DNA from: Hyphomonas chukchiensis
Lineage (GTDB): Bacteria > Pseudomonadota > Alphaproteobacteria > Caulobacterales > Hyphomonadaceae
Assembly (NCBI RefSeq): GCF_000682695.1
Contig: NZ_AWFG01000013.1
Span: forward strand, 1 to 64,000
Direction: 5' to 3'
DNA: 64,000 bases
The translations under genes were made by a program, and so were the position numbers. The stretch's first letter is position 1. Each line of letters opens with the position of its first letter. Shown one piece after another: positions 7,055 to 64,000 of this stretch. Under the pieces are notes generated by a model. It had not been told where the DNA came from. It made no database searches and saw nothing but the letters and a program-made list of their open reading frames with translations.

Positions 7055-9223
7055 CTACATGAACGAGTATGGGTCGATATCCACCGAAATCCTGACAGGG
7101 CGGGGCGGTTTCAGCCGCGCCAGCCAGGCCGCCATATAGGCCGAAAGATCAACGTTCCGGGGCGATTTCACAAGGAATCGCCGCCTGTGCCGCCCGCGCA
7201 GCACGGTGATTGGCGCCGGGGCCGGCCCGAACAGTTCGATTCCCGCCCCGTTTGGCGCCGCCAGCGATATCTCGCGGCAGGCCTCCTCCACCATTTCCGC
7301 ACTTGGCGCCGACACGATCATCGCCGCCAGCCGCCCGAATGGCGGCAGGCCCAGTTCCGCCCGCACATCCCGCTCGATCTGCAGAAAGCCGTCCCGGTCG
7401 CCGTCCGCCAGCGCCAGCATGGCCGGATTGTCCGGCGCATAGGTCTGCACCAGCGCCCGCCCCGGCCGCTCGGCGCGCCCGGCCCGGCCCGCCACCTGGC
7501 TCAGCAACTGGTAGGTCCGCTCCCCGGCCCGCAGGTCGCCGCCCTTCATGCCCGAATCGGCATCCACCACGCCCACCAGCGTCAGGTTCGGGAAATTGTG
7601 CCCCTTGGCCACGATCTGGGTGCCGATCAGCACATCAATGTCGCCCGTCTCCATCCGCTCGATAATGCCGCGCGTCGCGTCGCCGCCCATGGCCGTGTCC
7701 GACGAGAATATCTCGATCCGCGCCTCCGGCATCAGCACGCGCACCTCTTCGGCCACCCGCTCCACGCCCGGCCCCACGCCCATCAGCGAATCCTTCGCCC
7801 CGCAGGCCGGGCAGACGCTCGGCTTGGGAATCGAATAGCCCGTCACATGGCAGACCAGCCGCCCGCTATACCTATGCTCGGTCAGCCAGTTCTCGGTGCC
7901 CGGCGTCTTCAGCCGCTCGCCGCACGCCTTGCAGATCACCAGTGGCGCATAGCCCCTGCGGTTCAGGAACAGCAGCGACTGCTCGCCCGCCGCCAGCGTC
8001 TCCTTCAGCGCCTGGATCAGCCAGGGCGACAGCCAGTGATTCTTCTCCGGCGGCGCCCTGCGCAGGTCCACCAGCTCCACATCCGGCAGCCGCGACGCTC
8101 CCGGCCGCGCCGCCAGCATCAGCCGCGTGTACCGCCCGGCCTCGGCATTCACCATTGTCTCCAGCGCAGGCGTCGCCGAGGCCAGCACGACGGCCGCGCC
8201 CTCCAGCTTCGCCCGCATCACCGCCATGTCGCGCGCATGATAGGTCACGCCGTCTTCCTGCTTGTAGCTGCCGTCATGCTCTTCATCGACGATGACCAGC
8301 TTCAGGTTCGCATAGGGCAGGAACAGCGCCGAGCGCGCGCCGATCACGATCCTTGCCCGGCCATGCGCCGCCTCGCGCCATGTCCGCCGGCGCTCCTTGT
8401 CCGAAAGCCCCGAATGCCACGGCGCGGGCGCTGCCCCGAACCGCGCCTCGAACCGCGAGAGAATCGCCTGCGTCAGCGCAATCTCGGGCAGCAGCACCAG
8501 TATCTGCGCGTCAGGGTCCACGCGCAGCGCTTCCGCGATCGCCTCGAAATACACTTCCGTCTTGCCGGAGCCCGTCACGCCATCGAGCAGGAAGGCCGCA
8601 AAGCCCCCCGTCCGCATGGATGCCTTCATCACCGCGGCGGCCTCGGCCTGCTCACCCGTCAGCTGTGCGCCCGGCAGGTCCGGTTGCGGCAAGGCAAAGG
8701 GCAGGTCCGCCGCCATCTCCTCGGCCCGCAGCGCGCCCGCCTTCTCCAGCCCCTTCACCACGCCGCTCGACACGCCCGCCGCCGCCGCCAGCGTCGCCGC
8801 GTTCACCGCGCCCACCTCCTCCGCCGCGTCCAGCACCCGCCGCCGCGCGCCGGTCAGCTTAGGTGGCACATCGCCCGTCAGGTGGAACACGGTCTCCGTC
8901 GGCGAAGGCGACAGCCCGCCCCGCGCCCTGAGTGTCATGCCCAGAACATGGCCCGGATGCGACACCGTATATTTCGCGCCCCAGCTGATGAATTCGCGCA
9001 TCGCGTCCCGCATCGGCGGCACGTCATAGACAGAAAGCACAGGCTTCAGCGTGCGCCCCGCCACCGCCTCGTTGCCCAGCAATTCCCACACAACGCCCAG
9101 CCGCTCGGTCTGCCCCAGCGGCGCGGTCACATAGGAACCGACGCGCACATCCATCCCTTCCGGCACCGCGTAATCGAACGGTTCCGGCAGGGGCAGGACA
9201 AAGAGAATCCGCGCGACAGCCAT
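7055..9223 (-). CDS. priA: Primosomal protein N' (PriA replication-restart helicase)
   Basis: 722 residues, close to the normal length. PriA recognises stalled forks and reloads the replicative helicase. Walker A is DGVTGSGKTEVYF (about 214-226), the DEAH-type Walker B is VDEEHD (312-317), and motif III is LASATPALET. The cysteine region is unusual. C431/C434 and C471/C474 are kept, but the usual CPxC pair reads T440-P-G-T443 and the CHxC pair reads C458-H-V-T461, so three of the eight expected zinc cysteines are threonine. Placement beside atpHAGDC is common in alphaproteobacteria. Confidence 0.97.
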   Translation of the reverse strand: MAVARILFVLPLPEPFDYAVPEGMDVRVGSYVTAPLGQTERLGVVWELLGNEAVAGRTLKPVLSVYDVPPMRDAMREFISWGAKYTVSHPGHVLGMTLRARGGLSPSPTETVFHLTGDVPPKLTGARRRVLDAAEEVGAVNAATLAAAAGVSSGVVKGLEKAGALRAEEMAADLPFALPQPDLPGAQLTGEQAEAAAVMKASMRTGGFAAFLLDGVTGSGKTEVYFEAIAEALRVDPDAQILVLLPEIALTQAILSRFEARFGAAPAPWHSGLSDKERRRTWREAAHGRARIVIGARSALFLPYANLKLVIVDEEHDGSYKQEDGVTYHARDMAVMRAKLEGAAVVLASATPALETMVNAEAGRYTRLMLAARPGASRLPDVELVDLRRAPPEKNHWLSPWLIQALKETLAAGEQSLLFLNRRGYAPLVICKACGERLKTPGTENWLTEHRYSGRLVCHVTGYSIPKPSVCPACGAKDSLMGVGPGVERVAEEVRVLMPEARIEIFSSDTAMGGDATRGIIERMETGDIDVLIGTQIVAKGHNFPNLTLVGVVDADSGMKGGDLRAGERTYQLLSQVAGRAGRAERPGRALVQTYAPDNPAMLALADGDRDGFLQIERDVRAELGLPPFGRLAAMIVSAPSAEMVEEACREISLAAPNGAGIELFGPAPAPITVLRGRHRRRFLVKSPRNVDLSAYMAAWLARLKPPRPVRISVDIDPYSFM

Positions 9224-9279
9224 GACCTTGGCTTAGCGCCGTTAAGCCAAGGCGTCATCCCGCCGAGGCAGGGCCCTTG

Positions 9280-9774
9280 CTACTCCGCCTTCTGCAATGA
9301 CAGGACAATCCGCCGATAGCCGCTCGCATCATCCTGTATCTGGATCGAACTTACCCCCGCCCAGCCGCCGCCGGACACTTCCAGCACACGCGTCGCGCCC
9401 ACTTCCCTGCCCGCCAAAGCATCCGTGACCGAGATGCCCTGGTCCTCGCCCCACCGGATCATGTCCGCGAACAGCTTGTCGCCGTCTGCCAGGGTCCGCG
9501 CCTGCAGCTGGTAAGCCGCCGGCGTCACGTTGGGCTTGGTCACGCTATAGATGTGCGCATCACCCGGCAGCGGGAAGCCCTTCGGCAGCCAGTCGGGCTT
9601 CGGCAGGTTCACCGCTCCGAGCAGACGGTCCGCCTCTCCCCCGGCAACCTTCTTTCCCTGCGCTGCCTCGGCCGTGCCATCGGTCTCCGGCGACGCACTT
9701 CCCGAACAGGCCGCGCAAAGGGCCATCGCCCCCACCAAACCTGCCAGAACAAGTCTTGAGCCACTAAATGCCAT
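9280..9774 (-). CDS. Putative lipoprotein of unknown function
   Basis: 164 residues. The N-terminus has a basic residue, a hydrophobic stretch and ALCAAC, a plausible lipobox ending at about Cys23, so a membrane-anchored lipoprotein is likely. After a low-complexity linker, the rest (GFPLPGDAHIYSVTKPNV..., ending in SIQIQDDASGYRRIVLSLQ) suggests a small alpha/beta domain that I cannot name. It is monocistronic and divergent from the DUF2188 gene. Confidence 0.65.
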   Translation of the reverse strand: MAFSGSRLVLAGLVGAMALCAACSGSASPETDGTAEAAQGKKVAGGEADRLLGAVNLPKPDWLPKGFPLPGDAHIYSVTKPNVTPAAYQLQARTLADGDKLFADMIRWGEDQGISVTDALAGREVGATRVLEVSGGGWAGVSSIQIQDDASGYRRIVLSLQKAE

Positions 9775-25359: not shown

Positions 25360-25764
25360 ATGTACCGGCTTATCTATATCAGCTCCGCGTCCGAAGATAT
25401 TTCCGCAACGGACATTCGGGATATCCTTACAACCGCTGTGTCCAATAACCGGGATATGGAGATCACAGGCCTGTTGATGTACAACGGACTGAACTTCATG
25501 CAGGTGCTTGAAGGCAAGCGGGACGATATCGAACCCCTCTTCGAGAAGATCTCCAATGATAAGCGGCATGTGTCTGTCGCCTCCATTCTTCAGGGCGATG
25601 CCGACACGCGGATTTTTGCGCCATGGGCCATGCTGTTCAAGAAGGTGAAACCTGAAACGGCTGAAGATGATGTGCCTGAGGTGACCATGTCCGAAATCAT
25701 GGCGCTCGACATGCCGGACAACGTGCGCACGATCATCAAGAATTTCGACAACCTGTTGGGCTGA
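25360..25764 (+). CDS. BLUF-domain blue-light photoreceptor (stand-alone)
   Basis: 134 residues: a complete BLUF domain (about 1-95) plus a helical C-terminal cap, with no output domain. The flavin-site residues are all present: Tyr6 (LIYIS), Asn30 (NN), Gln48 (FMQVLEG), Trp89 and Met91 (PWAM). It should bind FAD and undergo the light-induced hydrogen-bond switch. Short BLUF proteins signal by protein-protein contact. AGGGGACAGC lies before ATG 25360. A second BLUF gene lies at 61785-62213. Confidence 0.93.
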   Translation: MYRLIYISSASEDISATDIRDILTTAVSNNRDMEITGLLMYNGLNFMQVLEGKRDDIEPLFEKISNDKRHVSVASILQGDADTRIFAPWAMLFKKVKPETAEDDVPEVTMSEIMALDMPDNVRTIIKNFDNLLG

Positions 25765-25810
25765 TGACACCAGCCTGAATCCACAGGTTCTACGCATTAC
25801 CTCCAAATAT

Positions 25811-25825
25811 GTTCTTGTTTTGTTC
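25811..25825 (+). promoter_or_regulatory. Alphaproteobacterial LexA (SOS) box
   Basis: GTTC-N7-GTTC is exact here (GTTCTTGTTTTGTTC), the direct-repeat LexA operator of alphaproteobacteria. It lies 25 bases before the chosen start of the radical SAM gene, a normal place for an SOS operator overlapping a promoter. Confidence 0.75.
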
Positions 25826-25850
25826 TTGCTCTTGTGGGCACATGAGCCCC

Positions 25851-26984
25851 ATGAGGACAGGACAGAAACTCAAGCCTACGGGCCGCGTGACGCTGATCGA
25901 CACGCAGCAGGCCGTCGAACGGTCTGACCAGCGCGGGCGCGGCGCAGTGTCCAACCAGACTGGCCGGTTCGAGCCCGAAACGCGTCACACCTTCGATGAC
26001 GGCTGGGATACTGTCGAAGAGGCAGCCGCCCGTATCGACACGACGCTGACGCGTGAAGCGGCCAAGACGATCATCACCTTCAACAAGTCACCCGACATTT
26101 CGTTTGACCGTTCGATCAACCCCTACCGGGGCTGTGAGCATGGATGCATCTATTGTTTCGCCCGGCCCAGCCATGCCTATGGCGGCCTCTCTGCCGGGCT
26201 TGATTTCGAAAGCAGGCTCTTCTTCAAACCGAACGCGCCGGAATTGCTGAAGCGGGAATTGTCCCGCCCCGGCTATCGCCCTCGCTCAATCGCGCTGGGC
26301 ATCAACACCGATGCCTTCCAGCCGGTGGAACGCGAATTGGGACTGACGCGCGAACTGCTGAAAATCCTGTCGGACTATCGCCACCCCGTCAGCCTCCTTA
26401 CCAAATCCTCCCTGATAGAACGTGATATCGACCTGATGGCGCCCATGGCAGAAGCAGGGCTGCTGCGCGTCGGCGTCTCGATCACCACGCTGGATCGCAC
26501 CCTCGCGCGCAAGATGGAGCCGCGCGCGGCAACGCCCTCACGGCGGCTGCAGACCATCCGCGCGCTTTCGGACGCGGGCATACCGGTAACGGTCATGACC
26601 GCCCCCATCATTCCCGGGCTGACCGACCATGAGATCGAGCACCTCCTGGAGGCCGCCGCTGAACATGGGGCCACAGGCGCCGGCTATGTTCTGCTGCGCC
26701 TGCCGCATGAGATAAAGGACCTCTTCCATGAATGGCTGGTGACCCACGTGCCTGATCGCGCGGCGAAAGTGATCAACACGATCCGCGAAATGCGGGGCGG
26801 CAAGGATTATGATGCCCGCTGGTTTGAGCGCGGCAGCGGGCGTGGTCCCGTTGCGCAGATAATTTCGCAGCGCTTTGCCCGGGAGACCCGGCGGCTTGGC
26901 CTCGACACGCCCCGCCCCGCGTTGCGAACAGACCTGTTCCAGCCACCGGTCGCTCCAAATGGCCAGCTGCGGTTTGGTTTTTGA
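25851..26984 (+). CDS. SplB-like radical SAM protein (PA0069 family)
   Basis: 377 residues. The radical SAM cluster motif CEHGCIYC (C-x3-C-x2-C) occurs in NPYRGCEHGCIYCFARP, the pattern of the PA0069/spore-photoproduct-lyase-like family. The upstream RGRGAVSNQTGRFEP segment is family-typical. The exact reaction is unknown for this family, though relatives repair or process DNA. ATG 25851 was chosen because the frame upstream is cysteine-rich and overlaps the LexA box; ATG 25842 is an alternative. Confidence 0.9.
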   Translation: MRTGQKLKPTGRVTLIDTQQAVERSDQRGRGAVSNQTGRFEPETRHTFDDGWDTVEEAAARIDTTLTREAAKTIITFNKSPDISFDRSINPYRGCEHGCIYCFARPSHAYGGLSAGLDFESRLFFKPNAPELLKRELSRPGYRPRSIALGINTDAFQPVERELGLTRELLKILSDYRHPVSLLTKSSLIERDIDLMAPMAEAGLLRVGVSITTLDRTLARKMEPRAATPSRRLQTIRALSDAGIPVTVMTAPIIPGLTDHEIEHLLEAAAEHGATGAGYVLLRLPHEIKDLFHEWLVTHVPDRAAKVINTIREMRGGKDYDARWFERGSGRGPVAQIISQRFARETRRLGLDTPRPALRTDLFQPPVAPNGQLRFGF

Positions 26985-57352: not shown

Positions 57353-58936
57353 TCAGTTGTTTGGCGAACCTGCAAGCGGGTCGTTCAGGTATGGGAACGC
57401 ATTCTTCAGCTCAGTCGCGCTGATCGGCGCCCCGTCAGTGAAGGCAACATTACCAACTGGTGCGTCATCCGACGTGCAAAAGCCCAGATCCGTCGGTGTC
57501 CCATTGATCGGCACCGGATAGCAAAGGGCTCCCATGACAACGCGCAACGCGATATCAACCGTGTCGTCACCCGGACGACGTCCGTTCGGGAAGCCGGCAA
57601 GATCATCACCCGCAACGCCAAAGGTGCTTTGAGTTGCGCGCGGCGTCGGAGCAATCCCGGTATTCAACCGCATCATTTCAGACGGAGTCACAATCGACTG
57701 CTGGTTCAGCGTCGGGATCCCGGTGAGGAAGGCCGCAACAAGATCATCCCGCGGAATATTTGTGGGAGCGAGATTGGCGATACTCGTACCGAGCGTCTGG
57801 TTGACTGCATCACGAAACAAGAGGTCCAGGATGGCGGGCAAAGTAGGGTTGGTAACATAATCAGCCAATGCACCGTCTTGAGTTGGCTCGGCCGCATTGA
57901 ACAGGTCCTTTTGCGGCAAACCGATCACCACTTCGTTTACCAATGGCGCAGAGAGACGCGACTGCTGCACGTAGGCGCCGCCATAAAGAGACGTTTGCTT
58001 GTATGTTGGCAGCGGGTCTTCGATGTTTGCCTGAGGCAGGCTTGCTGTCGTCCACGCACCGATGGTTCCGTTGCCGGCACCAACAAGGCAGTCCACCGGA
58101 ACTTCGATTGCCAACGACGTCACATTGGCCTTGCCGACGAGATCATCATTTGCTCGGTCTTGGGTGATGCCGCCGGGAAATCCACCGCCGTCACCCGCTC
58201 CAGGGGCGCTGTCACCTTCAATAGGGACTAAATTCACCAGATCGAATATCTCGCCCAGATTGACGGCAAAGGCTTCCGCGCGCTGACCGACAAAGACACG
58301 ACCAGGCGTCGAGCAATTCGGGATCGTAATGTCATAAACGAACTGTCCCGCGTAAGTCGGATAGTCCGAGATAGTCTTGTTGCCAACATTATCCAGAGGC
58401 TTGACGAATTCCGCCGAGCCATCAGCAGCATTCGTGATGGCGTCGCGCGTTCCCGACCTGCGATCGCCCGACACGAGCGTAAGCGAATAGTATTCGTTTT
58501 CGCCAAGTGCCGCATCTTCAGGCGCACTGACTGGTCCCGCCGCGCGCAACGCAATCGGGATATCCTTGCCGGCAATGTCCAACGTCACGCCGGTGTCGTT
58601 GACGAGGCGATTGTCGAAGTCGAATTGGAACGTCAGATCTTCCACCGCGTCGCCGTCGCTGTCGACGTGGATTTCATAGAGCGCATCAGGATCCATCGTG
58701 AAATAGTTGGGGCCGCCGTATGGGTCCTGCAGGGGTTGATAGTTGGCGATAAAGGTCACGAACTGGTCACGGCCCGGCTCATAACTTTTGAACATATAAA
58801 AGTCTGTTCCATCGATCTTGGGCTGTTCGGTGGTGCCAGGCGCTTCGCGGTGACTGGACGCCCAGCTCGGAATGGCCACAGCGCAAAGGGCACCGATAGC
58901 CGCGCTTGATATCAGTAGGGAGCGCTTCAATTGCAT
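57353..58936 (-). CDS. DUF4331 family exported protein
   Basis: 527 residues. Signal peptide ending WAS, then SSHREAPGTTEQPKIDGTDF and FYMFKSYEPGRDQFVTFIAN, the DUF4331 hallmark. Acidic repeats such as HVDSDGDAVEDLTFQF may bind calcium. Function unknown. ATG 58936 is preceded by GGAG. It belongs to a cluster with the membrane proteins upstream. Confidence 0.9.
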   Translation of the reverse strand: MQLKRSLLISSAAIGALCAVAIPSWASSHREAPGTTEQPKIDGTDFYMFKSYEPGRDQFVTFIANYQPLQDPYGGPNYFTMDPDALYEIHVDSDGDAVEDLTFQFDFDNRLVNDTGVTLDIAGKDIPIALRAAGPVSAPEDAALGENEYYSLTLVSGDRRSGTRDAITNAADGSAEFVKPLDNVGNKTISDYPTYAGQFVYDITIPNCSTPGRVFVGQRAEAFAVNLGEIFDLVNLVPIEGDSAPGAGDGGGFPGGITQDRANDDLVGKANVTSLAIEVPVDCLVGAGNGTIGAWTTASLPQANIEDPLPTYKQTSLYGGAYVQQSRLSAPLVNEVVIGLPQKDLFNAAEPTQDGALADYVTNPTLPAILDLLFRDAVNQTLGTSIANLAPTNIPRDDLVAAFLTGIPTLNQQSIVTPSEMMRLNTGIAPTPRATQSTFGVAGDDLAGFPNGRRPGDDTVDIALRVVMGALCYPVPINGTPTDLGFCTSDDAPVGNVAFTDGAPISATELKNAFPYLNDPLAGSPNN

Positions 58937-59105
58937 TGGTAATCTCCAGATTGGCCTACCGCTCAAAGCCCCTCATGAGTGTTGTAAGGACGCTGGTAGC
59001 GTAAAAAGGCGGGTTGTAACTGCGCCATTGAAGGATCAGACGCATCAGAGATACGTAGCGCTGGCATCGTATGGTGCAGGCAATCCAAAACAATCGGCGT
59101 GTCGG

Positions 59106-59675
59106 TTAGAAAAGGTTAGTCTGCGAACTAACTGCGATGATCAGAACTGATATCGCAACGATCCAGGATCCCGCTATTCGAACCGCGATTGACCGCCACG
59201 CTGGCGCGCGTTCTGGATTTATAATCACCACAAGCTGCGAAAGGCATATGATGGCGCCGGCGCCTGCGATCACGTTTACAGCCATAAGACTGAAAGCCTG
59301 TGGGAATTCCCCATTTGCCGGAACACTCGCTACCGTTAACGCAGAGCCAATCAGGAAAATGATGATGGAAGCAGTCGCAGTATTTGCGCTAAACCGCATC
59401 GCAGTGAGTACGCCCAGCACGACTGCAAAGCCAATCACGATTGCAGGCGGACCGTTCAGCTGCCCGAAATGCAATATAGCAACAGTTCCCAAGGCAACGC
59501 CCCCGCAGAATGCGACAGATGCCCGTTTGATACCCGCTTTGGCCAGACAGCGAATCGACAAGCCTGCAGCGACAACCAGTATCACCTGCGCAACTTTCAG
59601 ATCAGCAGGAATGTACCCTGCCCGGACATCTCCAAATTGCGAAAGAACAGCGGCAAGCAGATATAGTGAGTTCAT
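59106..59675 (-). CDS. Membrane protein of unknown family
   Basis: 189 residues with about five or six hydrophobic helices and few charges (for example KVAQVILVVAAGLSI, PPAIVIGFAVVLGVLTAM, GSWIVAISVLIIAVSS). Length and placement resemble a partner of the HupE-like gene 16 bases upstream, but the HupE motif is absent. AAAGGG precedes ATG 59675. Confidence 0.7.
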   Translation of the reverse strand: MNSLYLLAAVLSQFGDVRAGYIPADLKVAQVILVVAAGLSIRCLAKAGIKRASVAFCGGVALGTVAILHFGQLNGPPAIVIGFAVVLGVLTAMRFSANTATASIIIFLIGSALTVASVPANGEFPQAFSLMAVNVIAGAGAIICLSQLVVIINPERAPAWRSIAVRIAGSWIVAISVLIIAVSSQTNLF

Positions 59676-59691
59676 TGGGCGCCCTTTCCTA

Positions 59692-60294
59692 TCAGATTAT
59701 GCCTAGCAGAAATCCAGCGCCAGCCGCCGTGATCAATCCTCCAACAGCGCGGACAAAGACCTCTCCTCTCGGTCGCGTTGTGACCAGTCCAAGCGCTATA
59801 CCAGCGAGATGGAGCAGACCCGTCGCCACAACGAACCCGACCGCGAATGAAACCGGATTGGCCGCTGTTGGTAATTCAATACCGTGTGCGTAGCCGTGAA
59901 AGATCGCAAATACTCCGACAATGATCGCCGCGCCCCACAATGGCATGCGAACCTTCCCCAAAATCAATGCCCCAAGGACGACTGACGAGAGCGCAATGCC
60001 TGTCTCCACACCTGGCAAAGGCAGACCCAGTACCCCCACCGCGCCGCCCAATGCCATTACGAGGGGAAACACGACTGGGAGAACCCATATGGCTGGTCGG
60101 CCAAGAAAGGTGCCCCATAATCCAACGGCGACCATGGCCGCGACGTGGTCCCAACCACGAACTGGATGGACGAACCCGCTCAATAATCCTCCACTGAGCC
60201 CCTCGCCTGTATGGGCTATCGCCGCAGGTGCAGCCACAAGCAGAAAGCTGAATAATATTAGGGCTTTGCGGGTTTGTGGCGATGTAAAAATCAA
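59692..60294 (-). CDS. HupE/UreJ-like membrane protein
   Basis: 200 residues with six to seven helices and a signal-like N-terminus ending AIAHTGEG. The motif FVHPVRGWDHVAAM and later FHGYAHGIELP place it in the HupE/UreJ family, linked to nickel or metal uptake in other bacteria. It starts with TTG at 60294, overlapping the TPR gene's TGA (TTGA), so translation is coupled. Confidence 0.85.
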   Translation of the reverse strand: MIFTSPQTRKALILFSFLLVAAPAAIAHTGEGLSGGLLSGFVHPVRGWDHVAAMVAVGLWGTFLGRPAIWVLPVVFPLVMALGGAVGVLGLPLPGVETGIALSSVVLGALILGKVRMPLWGAAIIVGVFAIFHGYAHGIELPTAANPVSFAVGFVVATGLLHLAGIALGLVTTRPRGEVFVRAVGGLITAAGAGFLLGII

Positions 60295-61487
60295 AGCGCA
60301 GGTCCTCTTCCTGGTATCGTCTCAGCACTGGCGTGTGGATGTAAACCGAGTTCAACCGACAGAGCGGGGATGGATAACCCATTCTCGGCCACCCACGACT
60401 TGACCATTTGTTCGGCCGCTATGTCTCCAGCCGCTCTCCCTGCCCGAAGCAAGATATCAGCATCTTCAAACTCTCGCTGCAGCGTCCAGTTCAGCCGTGC
60501 CCGTTCCACCGCCTCAGAGGGTTTGCCTTCGACGTCCAGCAGATAGCGCGCTTCTTCTCGCGCATGAGCGAAGCTTCCGATTTTTTTCTCTGCAAGAAGG
60601 TGCGCTTGGAGGGTCCTGCGCGATCTGAGAAGGCAGCCGAATTTCTTCAGCTGACTGCAGACAATGGCCCTTCGAACCAGCACCGCGTCGGTTGGCGGTT
60701 TACCCTGCAGCGCTTTGAGAGCTGCTTCGTACTCTGAACGACTTATGAGGAAATCAGCGTAGAGCGCTGCAGACCGAATGCTCGCCGGATCTGCCTTGAT
60801 GGCCTGGACAAAATGTCCGGCGGCCAGATCTGTCCAGTCATGATACATTGCAATTTCTGCCAAAACGCTGTGTGCATATCCACGCAATGCAGGCTCCATG
60901 ACCGGCTTCAACTCCATATAGCGGCTCAGTTTCGCGTAAGCTGCATCAGCGTCAGGCGAGAGCATATCGGTCGTGGCGGCGCAAATCAGCGCGAGGTCGA
61001 ACGCGCCAGCTTTTGCAAGGCCCCGGCATTCCGGACGCGCTTTTAGTGTATGACCCTGAACAACAAGAATATTCGCGCGCGTAAGCAGCAGAGTCGGGTT
61101 CCGCGGCTGTAGGGTTTCCGCCTGGCCGAGCAATTCCAGTGCGCCATCAAAATCGTGAAGGTATTGCTTGCCGACTGCGGCGAGTATGAGCGGACGCGCA
61201 TCAGGCCGGCTATTAAGGGCGGGCTGCAATGCAGAGAGGCCAGATTTAACCAGGCTTGCATCACCAATCCTGCGTCCAGTGTTGATGAACAAGCGTGCCG
61301 CCTGAATCGCGATTTCCTGATCATCCGGATCTGCGATGATCTGCGACGCGGCGACCTGTACCACTTCAGGATAACACGCTGCTTTCGGGCCCAGCAGACC
61401 CGGATTGCCGCGCAGTGAAGATGACATAAGGATCGCCACACACAGCGCAAAGCCTGTCGCCAAGCACAGAGTTAGAAAACGGTTCAT
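60291..61487 (-). CDS. TPR-repeat protein of the DUF4331 cluster
   Basis: 398 residues. A short N-terminal hydrophobic segment (LTLCLATGFALCVAILMSSS) acts as signal or anchor. The rest is helical repeats, for example YLHDFDGALELLGQAETLQP and WTDLAAGHFVQAIKADPAS. It is the first gene of the cluster; an inverted repeat lies at its start codon. Confidence 0.8.
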   Translation of the reverse strand: MNRFLTLCLATGFALCVAILMSSSLRGNPGLLGPKAACYPEVVQVAASQIIADPDDQEIAIQAARLFINTGRRIGDASLVKSGLSALQPALNSRPDARPLILAAVGKQYLHDFDGALELLGQAETLQPRNPTLLLTRANILVVQGHTLKARPECRGLAKAGAFDLALICAATTDMLSPDADAAYAKLSRYMELKPVMEPALRGYAHSVLAEIAMYHDWTDLAAGHFVQAIKADPASIRSAALYADFLISRSEYEAALKALQGKPPTDAVLVRRAIVCSQLKKFGCLLRSRRTLQAHLLAEKKIGSFAHAREEARYLLDVEGKPSEAVERARLNWTLQREFEDADILLRAGRAAGDIAAEQMVKSWVAENGLSIPALSVELGLHPHASAETIPGRGPAL

Positions 61488-61518
61488 TTGACACTAACTG
61501 TATAAACGTGATGTCAAA
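61487..61518. promoter_or_regulatory. Inverted repeat at the start of the TPR-HupE operon
   Basis: TTTGACA (61487-61493) and TGTCAAA (61512-61518) form a 7-bp dyad with an 18-base spacer abutting the TPR start codon. It may be an operator. The rest of the 297-base gap to the BLUF gene shows no convincing feature. Confidence 0.35.
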
Positions 61519-61784
61519 GATACGTATCCTCCACCGAAATTGATGCAGTTGTCTTCAGCAGTGTATGCAATGGGAACTCAAACACAAACGAGCCGCCGCG
61601 TATGCCTTCAATGAACGAAACAGTCTCATTCGAACTATTTCTGGCACATCGGGCGCGCCGTGAGGGCGAGCCCGTGCTTCTCGATACCGATAGGGGGGGC
61701 CGAAATGAATGCCCGATGGATGCGGTTTTCCACTAGCTCGCAATGGTTCTTGCCGTCAGCCATCCTGCACAGGCAGCGTTTGGA

Positions 61785-62213
61785 TCAATCGCCGCGGCGA
61801 ACGATGGATCCGGTCGCGACCAGGTCAGACAGGAGCGCCAGCGTCGCCTTGCCGGACGTTTCGAACGGGTCGAGAGTCGGGCGCTTGAAATATTTCAGAA
61901 GCATGCCCGGATTGAGCTTGGCGATGCTGACGTGCCCCATGGTCCAGTTTCCGAACATGCGCTCGTCAATCTCCGCATAGTCCAGAAGGCGGACATGGGT
62001 GTGGCGTGAATCACGGACAATTGCGTTGAACAATTCACAGACCTCATCGCGACCGCCCTCCAGGACCTGAATGAACAGATCGTCCGACACGCACAGCAGT
62101 CCTGTAATGCCGAGCGCAGGATTGTTTGTCCGCGACTGGTTGAGGATATTATCAAGAAACGTACCCTTCAGGGCGTCGGCAGGTCGGCTCGCGTACAGGC
62201 ACCTAACAATCAT
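61785..62213 (-). CDS. BLUF-domain blue-light photoreceptor, coupled to folE
   Basis: 142 residues: a BLUF domain with Tyr7, Asn31, Gln49, Trp90 and Met92, all flavin-contact residues, and a C-terminal extension (LLKYFKRPTLDPFETSGKAT) with no known output domain. Its ATG follows the folE stop by one base (TGA-G-ATG), so both come from one transcript with coupled translation. Confidence 0.92.
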   Translation of the reverse strand: MIVRCLYASRPADALKGTFLDNILNQSRTNNPALGITGLLCVSDDLFIQVLEGGRDEVCELFNAIVRDSRHTHVRLLDYAEIDERMFGNWTMGHVSIAKLNPGMLLKYFKRPTLDPFETSGKATLALLSDLVATGSIVRRGD

Positions 62214-62214
62214 C

Positions 62215-62931
62215 TCAATCTCGCTTTCTCAAGTTAAGCAGCGCCAGGAACTCACTACGAAGGGTATGATCCTTGAGGAATGAGCCGCGCATTGCGCTAT
62301 TGATCATGACCGCCTCGTCCTTCACGCCGCGCCAATGCATGCAGAAATGGTCGGCCTCCATGACGACGGCGAGGCCGTCAGGACTGACCTTGCTCATCAG
62401 TATTTCCGCTATTTGGGCAATCGCTTCTTCCTGTATCTGCGGCCGCGACATGATCCATTCGGCAAGCCGGGCATACTTTGACAAGCCGATCAGGTTAGAG
62501 TGCTCATTAGGCATGAGCCCGATCCATAGCCGTCCCATGATCGGACAAAAGTGATGGCTGCACGCGCTCCGAACCGTGATCGGGCCGACAATCATCAACT
62601 CATTGAGGGATTCCGCGTTTGGAAATTCGGTCACCGCCGGCGGCGCGACATAGCGGCCGGCAAAAACTTCGGTAAGATACATCTTCGCAACCCGGCGCGC
62701 CGTGTCACGAGTGTTGTGATCATTGTCGATATCGATCACCAGGCTTTGAAGGACCGTCCTCATCCCCTCTTCAACTTCAGCCAACAGCGCATCGAGATCA
62801 CCCGGTTCAAGGAAATCAGCAATATTGTCATTAGCATGAAAACGTTTCCGCGCGCGCTCGATGCGCTGACGGATCCGGACAGATGCCGGCGCGTGCTCGG
62901 CGGGAATCGCATTGTCTTCTTTGTCAGCCAT
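62215..62931 (-). CDS. folE: GTP cyclohydrolase I
   Basis: 238 residues. Converts GTP to dihydroneopterin triphosphate, the first step to folate and pterins. Zinc ligands are C124 and H126/H127 in VRSACSHHFCP and C197 in ADHFCMHWRGV, with catalytic H195. The core differs from common FolE (RPQIQEEAI for RLQVQE, NSAMRGSF for TS.m.G.F), so this may be a specialised copy. It leads the folE-BLUF operon. Confidence 0.9.
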   Translation of the reverse strand: MADKEDNAIPAEHAPASVRIRQRIERARKRFHANDNIADFLEPGDLDALLAEVEEGMRTVLQSLVIDIDNDHNTRDTARRVAKMYLTEVFAGRYVAPPAVTEFPNAESLNELMIVGPITVRSACSHHFCPIMGRLWIGLMPNEHSNLIGLSKYARLAEWIMSRPQIQEEAIAQIAEILMSKVSPDGLAVVMEADHFCMHWRGVKDEAVMINSAMRGSFLKDHTLRSEFLALLNLRKRD

Positions 62932-63538
62932 CTTCCGTATTTCTGCTCTTCAATTTGATTGCGTTAGCACACTTAAGGCAATCAGGGCATGTTATCCCAT
63001 CTGGGAGCGGGTGCAGTCCCCAAGGTCGACAGTGTTGAGTTTTGTGGATCAGGAGAGCCGTAGCCCTCAGTTAGACACGAAATGAACTAGACGCGCGCCC
63101 ATGCAGTTCAAGACTTCACCTGAAATCTTCTCGCCCCGCCATCAGACTGAGGCCAAGGCTTTCGATAAAGCGAGATGTGATGAAGGCTCATCCGGCTCGA
63201 AAGGCACATCAACTGCCAAATAAGGTTCAAACAGAAACGAGATGCGGCGCTTCGCGAGTAGCGCGACCTCCTCGTTGCCAAATACCTGTTCGTCCGCAAA
63301 TAATAGAGATGGGATCGCATTAGACTGACACACCGCCGCACACGCTACATAATACATTGTTCTATAATGAGATAATGCACTTTGGACTACATGATCCCAC
63401 GATTTACACCGCTGCATACCACTTCCACTTGGACGTCGCGGCTCAGGGCATGCTTCCGATGACACTACTTGCCCCGGCGCCATGTGTTCCCCTCGGTGAG
63501 CTTGCGTGTATGATCGTTCAAAATCATTGGGAAGAAAC
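62932..63538. other. 607-bp region without a clear gene
   Basis: Between folE and the acyl-CoA synthetase. It presumably contains the promoters for both divergent genes. Only one weak open frame is seen on the minus strand (listed separately). No tRNA, repeat or terminator was recognised. Confidence 0.5.
63142..63357 (-). CDS. Possible small unknown protein
   Basis: 71 residues from ATG 63357, including SNAIPSLLFADEQVFGNEEV then ALLAKRRISFLFEPYLAVD. No family, signal peptide or membrane helix recognised, and no strong ribosome-binding site. Codon use is not clearly gene-like. It may be a remnant or chance frame. Confidence 0.25.
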   Translation of the reverse strand: MYYVACAAVCQSNAIPSLLFADEQVFGNEEVALLAKRRISFLFEPYLAVDVPFEPDEPSSHLALSKALASV

Positions 63539-64000
63539 ATGCATTACGCCGAATTGTTGAAAGCTCGTGAAGAGCTGACCGGGCCGGGTGGCGACTTTGA
63601 AATCATTGAAGCCGAGGTGCTTGGCAACCGGATCCGGACCTACAAGAATGCCCCTCCTAGCGTGCGGGAATTCTGGCTGTCGACCGCTGAGTTCGCTGAC
63701 CGCCCCTATCTCGTCTATGGCGACGAGCGACTCACATATGCTCAATCACATGAGCAGGTGAACGCCGTCGCGGCCTGGCTCGCAGACCAAGGCGTCACGG
63801 CTGGCGACCGCGTCGCCATTGCCATGCGCAACTATCCCGAATGGATGCTGATATACTGGGCCTGCGCCTGCAGCGGGATTGCCGTTGTCGGCATGAACGC
63901 CTGGTGGACCGCCGAAGAGATGGCCTATGCCCTGACCGACTCGGCGCCCAAGGTGTTATTTCTCGATGCGGAACGCCTTGATCGACTACGTGAACGCCCC
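63539..64000 (+). CDS. Acyl-CoA synthetase / AMP-binding enzyme (N-terminal part)
   Basis: 154 codons to the window edge. MHYAELLKAREELTGPGG leads to RPYLVYGDERLTYAQSHEQV, GVTAGDRVAIAMRNYPEWML and GMNAWWTAEEMAYALTDSAP, the opening of class I adenylate-forming enzymes that activate fatty or aryl acids with ATP and CoA. GGAAGAAAC precedes ATG 63539. The AMP-binding core lies beyond the window. Confidence 0.88.
   Translation, partial: MHYAELLKAREELTGPGGDFEIIEAEVLGNRIRTYKNAPPSVREFWLSTAEFADRPYLVYGDERLTYAQSHEQVNAVAAWLADQGVTAGDRVAIAMRNYPEWMLIYWACACSGIAVVGMNAWWTAEEMAYALTDSAPKVLFLDAERLDRLRERP

Follow-up and report, generated by a model that had tools for sequence, protein, structure and literature searches.

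BLUF proteins bind flavin, which is not a product of the FolE route, and in the BLUF-enzyme fusions (photoactivated adenylyl cyclases, BlrP1) the BLUF domain controls an enzyme. Stand-alone BLUF proteins are, to our knowledge, common, and few of them have a known partner; nor do we know of any relation between BLUF proteins and GFRP, the small regulatory protein of animal GTP cyclohydrolase I. FolE2, which appears below, is an enzyme family different from FolE. Human GTP cyclohydrolase I is described as a D5 decamer whose five-fold axis is capped by two GFRP pentamers (PMC7750480). The short BLUF protein PixD was observed as two stacked pentameric rings in crystals and also as a dimer in solution, and in one view its partner PixE binds the dimer rather than the decamer (PMC5899715). 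In Pseudomonas mendocina, folM-folE-folX lies near PmSB-LOV and the LitR protein PmlR2, and light induces these genes, folE by 1.6 to 3.3 fold (PMC9758184). The RpoE singlet-oxygen response of Rhodobacter includes folE2 (PMC7074977), and cyanobacterial UV-A responses involve pterins (PMC3546692).

Here we describe a folE gene directly followed by a BLUF gene in a window of 64,000 nucleotides, the whole stretch of DNA analysed, from Hyphomonas chukchiensis (genome of 3.86 Mb in 106 contigs, 99.96% complete). The features of the region are as follows:

57353-58966, minus strand: DUF4331 protein, downstream of the pair
59106-59675, minus strand: protein without Pfam match, downstream of the pair
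59692-60294, minus strand: HupE/UreJ-like protein, downstream of the pair
60291-61487, minus strand: TPR protein, the next downstream gene, 297 bp past the end of the BLUF gene
61785..62213, minus strand: predicted PixD-type BLUF photoreceptor, short and stand-alone, 142 aa (PF04940, profile match, Foldseek)
62214..62214, minus strand: the one base that separates the stop codon of folE from the start codon of BLUF (sequence)
62215..62931, minus strand: folE of the BLUF-linked subfamily, a divergent GTP cyclohydrolase I paralogue, 238 aa (PF01227, motifs, predicted fold)
62932..63505, minus strand: stretch upstream of folE, the expected promoter location, including part of the 132-aa ORF
63142-63540, minus strand: 132-aa ORF between the pair and the AMP-binding enzyme gene (ORF list)
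from 63506, divergently oriented: AMP-binding enzyme gene upstream of the pair

The junction of the two genes reads ...ATTGAGATG..., i.e. TGA, one base and ATG, so that the one-base spacing given in the earlier note stands. At E <= 0.001 each protein matched a single Pfam family, PF01227 for FolE (E 2e-42) and PF04940 for BLUF (E 2.8e-28). We read folE and the BLUF gene as a two-gene unit, and since the same order and strand recur across relatives as detailed below, the pairing in the window is not due to chance. Four genes on the same strand, including the TPR protein gene, follow 3' of the pair (57353-61487).

Compared with the described systems, the pair shares with animal GCH1-GFRP a small protein that may regulate GTP cyclohydrolase I, in a complex that is putative here, but GFRP answers phenylalanine and BH4, not light (PMC7750480). 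With Synechocystis PixD-PixE it shares the short BLUF architecture, PixD being the best sequence and fold match of the window BLUF; PixE, however, is response regulator-like and serves phototaxis, whereas the constant partner gene here encodes a biosynthetic enzyme. Chains of the photoactivated adenylyl cyclase and BlrP1 type were among the profile and Foldseek matches of the window BLUF, but these fusions are single chains acting on cyclic nucleotides, while two separate proteins and a cofactor pathway are concerned here. In the P. mendocina region, too, a light-induced gene for GTP cyclohydrolase I lies near that of a blue-light receptor, but the receptor is LOV instead of BLUF and works via a transcription factor (PMC9758184). 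Similarly, the Rhodobacter RpoE/ChrR regulon holds a GTP cyclohydrolase in a photo-oxidative response together with photolyase, SDR and fatty-acid genes, but the text consulted names no paired photoreceptor for folE2 (PMC7074977).

With 145.1 bits, the window FolE lies well above the PF01227 gathering score of 27, and its AlphaFold2 model (single chain, pLDDT 90.8) returned GTP cyclohydrolase I for all 50 Foldseek matches listed. The core motifs had been called divergent, correctly so: the protein carries CSHH and HFCMHWRG in place of the CEHH and HECMSTRG of the canonical FolE from the same genome, and it scores below the cut-offs of four NCBIfam FolE models (TIGR00063, 146.8 vs 181.6 bits; NF006824, 138.9 vs 202; NF006825, 129.1 vs 174; NF006826, 146.8 vs 162), three of which the canonical protein passes. 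Ser125 was found in 114/114 clade members at a column that is Glu in the genome's canonical FolE, and two further marks of the clade are HFCMHWRG and, towards the N-terminus, a region around ANDNI. The presumed metal and catalytic residues C124, H126, H127, S151, K152, R155, Q167, E168, H195, C197 and R201, whose roles and equivalents we take to be those of E. coli FolE, are identical in all 114. Identity is 31-40% to housekeeping FolE (among the matches listed) vs at least 61% within the divergent clade, and a quick tree set the divergent proteins apart from five canonical FolE with an SH-aLRT of 100; the separation from housekeeping FolE that the earlier note had left to be checked is thus borne out. 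By these sequence comparisons, the divergent FolE is a distinct subfamily in which the presumed metal and catalytic residues are complete.

The window BLUF scored 98.3 bits against PF04940. Tyr7, Asn31, Gln49 and Trp90, previously listed as retained flavin contacts, are indeed present together with Met92, and all five are identical in 97/97 distinct pairs. Its best PDB profile match was Slr1694/PixD (2hfn), with Tll0078 also among the best; the PixD and Tll0078 matches reach residue 131-133 of 142, and that of BlsA reaches 134 at a lower score. All 23 profile matches were BLUF proteins apart from one dynein light chain. The predicted fold (single chain, pLDDT 84.5) gave Foldseek TM scores of 0.84-0.87 to PixD-type chains, which occupy all of the 24 best rows, vs 0.75-0.78 to BlrB/BlsA and 0.62-0.70 to AppA, and GFRP was absent among the 50 matches listed of 1435. 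The C-terminal part is PixD-like and a fused effector domain is absent; on profile and model comparison, then, the protein is a PixD-type short photoreceptor. A pterin as chromophore of the BLUF protein itself, which had also been suggested, is unlikely because the flavin that BLUF proteins bind is not made via FolE.

To follow the pairing across relatives, the window FolE was searched against an order sample of 299 genomes, the window genome included. The identities fell into two groups, one of 66-100% (25 copies in 23 genomes) and one of 31-40% formed by housekeeping FolE (among the matches listed). A BLUF gene lay directly downstream of the 17 copies at 75% identity or more and behind none of the eight copies at 66-71%. 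The reverse search with the BLUF protein in the same 299 genomes returned 17 close relatives (59-100%), every one of them behind a divergent FolE, and the next best BLUFs shared 31-51% identity. The gap measured 1-10 nt in 16 of the 17 pairs; in the 17th (L056 of genome G259, 8857-9592) the folE frame is broken near its 3' end while the downstream BLUF gene is intact, the result of either young decay or an assembly error.

When 84,980 species were scanned with the FolE profile, at least 527 relatives were found, not all of which necessarily belong to the divergent clade. The 80 loci examined are the best 80 of these at least 527, which biases them towards the pair, and some of their genomes are also in the order sample. 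In 79 of these best 80, a BLUF gene encoding 135-144 aa followed 1-19 nt downstream on the same strand; the contig of the 80th ends at the folE stop codon. The exact one-base gap of the window was rare (2/79 of the best 80 of at least 527, plus genome G539 in the phylum sample), the usual gap being 2-11 nt with a mode of 7-8 among these 79 and up to 63 nt in the phylum sample. By record title the best 80 were mostly Alpha- or Betaproteobacteria with one Gammaproteobacteria, and named isolates include Uliginosibacterium, Vogesella, Caldimonas, Aquabacterium, Sapientia and Aestuariivirga. Four titles of metagenome bins (Acidobacteria, Sulfopaludibacter, Chitinophaga and Deltaproteobacteria) are unsafe as taxonomy, and at least one looks mislabelled.

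The phylum sample of 398 genomes contained 24 divergent FolE copies in 22 genomes, two of which are also in the order sample. A BLUF gene stood beside 14 of the 24 copies and was absent from the fetched flank of the other ten, so the enzyme can do without the sensor in some settings. Each of the 14 BLUFs with at least 47% identity lay behind a divergent FolE, and the six other BLUF matches (34-41%) came from five genomes, all without a FolE match at E 1e-60. No close relative of the BLUF was therefore found without a divergent FolE in the 299 order and 398 phylum genomes. Ten plasmid records carry a divergent FolE, and among the three looked at, BLUF was present in one (L230) and absent in two. 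The earlier note had asked for a genome search for such adjacency and would have been weakened by a pairing confined to close strains; the search instead found 17/17 in the order sample, 14/14 in the phylum sample and 79/80 among the best of at least 527 relatives, extending over Alpha-, Beta- and Gammaproteobacteria by record title as well as the 14 genomes of the phylum sample. Because FolE occurs without BLUF but BLUF was not found without FolE, the sensor looks, from these distributions, like an accessory of the divergent FolE, with the enzyme or its product as the probable target, and its dependence on this FolE would fit control of either.

The evolutionary analyses started from 127 loci, which became 115 after identical pairs were merged and L056 was taken out; 114 were thinned to 73. 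L056, with its broken frame, was left out of the tree set as short, and L121, whose contig ends at the folE stop codon, was left out of the BLUF counts and the tree. Sets A1 and A3 contain 14 of the 17 order-sample pair FolE proteins (L044, which is cut by a contig end, L052 and L056 are out), and A4 and A5 contain 53 and 28 of the 56 thinned pairs, respectively, plus others. On the FolE tree, BLUF presence required four changes vs 19.6 with shuffled labels. Seven FolE positions (143, 144, 157, 173, 181, 187 and 220), candidates for an interface with BLUF, were at least 94% conserved in the 97 BLUF-linked copies and changed in at least eight of the 17 unlinked copies. The median root-to-tip distance was 3.35 in 13 BLUF-less rows, seven of which form one clade, vs 2.02 in 56 BLUF-linked rows, where rows are not independent and four BLUF-less rows beside which the root falls (0.03-0.14) were left out; this gives only a hint that BLUF-less FolE may change faster, as if released from constraint. 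The distances of FolE and BLUF correlated with r 0.71 over 56 non-redundant pairs against a maximum of 0.27 in 2000 permutations, a correlation that would follow from shared descent alone.

The window genome encodes three FolE proteins: a canonical FolE with 237 bits on contig C1, the copy in the window with 146 bits and, on contig C30, a copy (148 bits; C30:31140-31829, L006:9129-9830) that belongs to the divergent clade and has no BLUF neighbour. The C30 folE ends a cluster of P450-, CoA-transferase-, aldehyde dehydrogenase- and ligase-type genes, kinds judged from sequence, and a similar arrangement was seen at L060. A canonical FolE was likewise present in 23/23 order-sample genomes with a divergent one, which is thus an extra copy beside the housekeeping enzyme and not, as would have spoken against the proposal, the sole FolE of the genome. 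Both BLUF genes of this genome lie inside the window. The second (25360-25764, plus strand) encodes a stand-alone protein of 134 aa with 32% identity to the folE-linked BLUF and is followed by a gene likely of the radical-SAM type (25809-26984, kind judged from sequence). Two ChrR-cupin matches were found elsewhere in the genome.

Around pairs in other genomes, where neighbours were identified for chosen genes only, genes of the light-stress type were often observed, including photolyase together with a photolyase-like gene (L046), DPRP (L047 and L145), ChrR with an ECF sigma factor (L043), and MerR and B12-binding CarH-like regulators (L159 and L128). Further neighbours encoded PRK09009-like SDR, FAD oxidoreductase, DCC1-like, SOUL, lipocalin and CMAS/Cfa-like proteins. 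By gene kind these neighbours resemble the light-response regions of P. mendocina, which hold photolyase, SDR, FAD oxidoreductase, fatty-acid synthase and cryB (PMC9758184). Sixteen marker families were counted at the order-sample loci and at the best 80 of at least 527. At least one was present at eight of the 17 order pair loci and at least two at four of the 17, vs none at 17 canonical folE loci of the same genomes and none at eight BLUF-less divergent folE loci, a contrast that is partly circular because the choice of families drew on the pair loci themselves; in addition, two of the eight positives depend on one broad family each (L041, ECF sigma; L056, DCC1). Looser clustering placed an ECF-sigma-cluster gene next to folE at one of the eight BLUF-less loci (L063). 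Among the best 80 of at least 527, at least one marker family occurred at 31 loci and at least two at 18. The pair locus of the window itself (L008, 19 kb fetched) had none of the 16.

Plasmid-borne relatives without BLUF have neighbours similar to those of pair loci. On a plasmid of Caballeronia sp. SBC1 (L231, 4965-7492), a MerR gene overlaps a BLUF-less clade folE that is followed by an SDR gene, possibly a pterin operon for light or stress that lacks a photoreceptor of its own. On a Roseibium aggregatum plasmid (L232, 5410-7473), a DUF2231 gene, a BLUF-less clade folE and a gene annotated as RNA polymerase sigma factor stand in a row with cbb3 oxidase genes upstream, an order comparable to that at L063.

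Neither a minus-strand sigma-70-like site nor a terminator-like site was detected in 61400-63600, and word and dyad counts gave no trusted shared motif upstream of 72 non-redundant pairs. A TGAT-N17-19-CGT(A/T) dyad occurred in 9/72 pairs vs 0.87 in shuffles and in 1/17 canonical folE regions; we do not claim it, since it was chosen from the very sequences in which it was then counted, four of its nine occurrences fall in a single homologous stretch, and its spacing from the start codon varies between 48 and 200 nt. Preset patterns in the 72 pairs gave four ECF11-like TGATC sites (1.53 in shuffles), no EcfG-like site (0.7), four sigma-70-like sites (0.57) and 0-1 for three LitR-like dyads (0.17-0.47). 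Control by CarH is unsupported in the window genome, where one CarH-like query found no CarH and matched at best a 64-residue stretch of an 897-aa frame (E 6.8e-4). Dependence on FeS-BCP (DPRP) was likewise set aside, as the window genome has no PF04244 match while 154/269 order genomes have one.

The reading to which we give an even chance is that of a two-gene unit in which a second GTP cyclohydrolase I, kept next to the housekeeping enzyme for light and photo-oxidative stress, is tuned to blue light by a PixD-type BLUF protein of its own. It builds on the conserved adjacency, the dependence of BLUF on FolE, the residue-complete clade, the PixD-type fold and the light-stress genes around many other members, and the failure to find BLUF without FolE suggests that light tunes the pterin/folate pathway directly. 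We infer a shared transcript, a contact, a direction of the light effect and a use of the product along the following lines. The two genes would probably share a transcript and be translated in a coupled manner. Bound to the FolE oligomer in the dark, the BLUF protein would keep the enzyme in one state of activity; blue light would shift the flavin hydrogen-bond network, the BLUF assembly would loosen or change shape, and FolE activity would change with it. Extra dihydroneopterin triphosphate could then be turned into reduced pterins or folates for a photolyase antenna, an antioxidant pterin or the repair of light-damaged one-carbon metabolism.

In a bolder version, which we put forward tentatively, the BLUF protein is a GFRP equivalent gated by light. 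Its PixD-type pentameric rings would bind the FolE decamer at the five-fold faces and, under blue light, either release or clamp the enzyme. Light would thus act post-translationally on the first pterin/folate step, through a two-gene unit that Proteobacteria inherit and transfer as a whole. Its basis is the five-fold symmetry common to the animal GTP cyclohydrolase I decamer and the PixD rings, an argument weakened by the dimeric form of PixD and by the possibility that PixE binds this dimer.

Alternatively, the two genes may merely be co-regulated as parts of one light or singlet-oxygen regulon, in which the BLUF protein signals to another partner, a transcription factor or response regulator, while FolE simultaneously supplies pterin or folate. 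Known BLUF proteins use very different partners, which leaves room for one other than FolE, and the short BLUF protein PixD acts on the response regulator-like PixE (PMC5899715). Regulator genes do occur near pairs, with CarH-like genes at four and class II MerR genes at six of the best 80 of at least 527, ChrR at 1/17 order loci and 1/80 of these best, ECF sigma factors at 2/17 and 3/80, and a response regulator gene directly behind one pair (L043); BLUF-less FolE is accompanied by MerR and SDR genes on the Caballeronia plasmid and by the RNA polymerase sigma factor gene on the Roseibium plasmid. However, a BLUF protein that had a separate partner would be expected to turn up without FolE now and then, which none of the close relatives did in either sample; moreover, the next commonest neighbour, a DCC1-like gene, was present at 11/80 (clustering) or 15/80 (phmmer) of the best of at least 527, vs 79/80 for BLUF. 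On balance we consider co-regulation without contact somewhat unlikely.

It is less probable still, and in our view improbable, that FolE is a stress back-up, i.e. an isozyme whose greater robustness or different tuning suits it to oxidative stress, with BLUF as a minor modulator or a flavin/redox buffer and not a light switch. The status of the divergent FolE as an extra copy in the 23/23 genomes checked agrees with such a role, as do the induction of FolE2 by singlet oxygen in Rhodobacter (PMC7074977) and the existence of BLUF-less members, one of them in the P450/acyl-CoA-type cluster of the window genome. A buffer role, however, would not demand the invariance of Tyr7, Asn31, Gln49, Trp90 and Met92 in 97/97 pairs, and the presumed metal ligands of FolE are the usual ones and thus give no sign of a metal-free enzyme. 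That FolE feeds folate to the MTHF antenna of a photolyase or cryptochrome in the same island, with BLUF reporting light for the repair programme, is very improbable: a photolyase and a photolyase-like FAD-domain gene lie near one pair (L046), DPRP near another (L047) and an aminodeoxychorismate-synthase-type gene (Chorismate_bind and Aminotran_4) near two (L045 and L047), but photolyase was found near only 1/17 order pairs and 1/80 of the best of at least 527, DPRP near 1/17 and 4/80, and PF04244, present in 154/269 order genomes, is absent from the window genome.

No published description of a folE-BLUF pair was found among the matches listed from the open full-text literature, and the pair would give a short BLUF protein a partner of a new kind. 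In many bacteria of soil and water a spare FolE is joined to a BLUF gene, and where a BLUF family is so closely tied to one enzyme, that enzyme is the partner to test. Should FolE be under direct control by light, the photoreceptor would act on a pathway for vitamins and cofactors without any step of transcription. The pair would then also be a possible bacterial analogue of GCH1-GFRP control in animals and an optogenetic tool of two proteins with which to set the supply of pterin and folate, and it would explain why an extra GTP cyclohydrolase is kept in light-stress islands.
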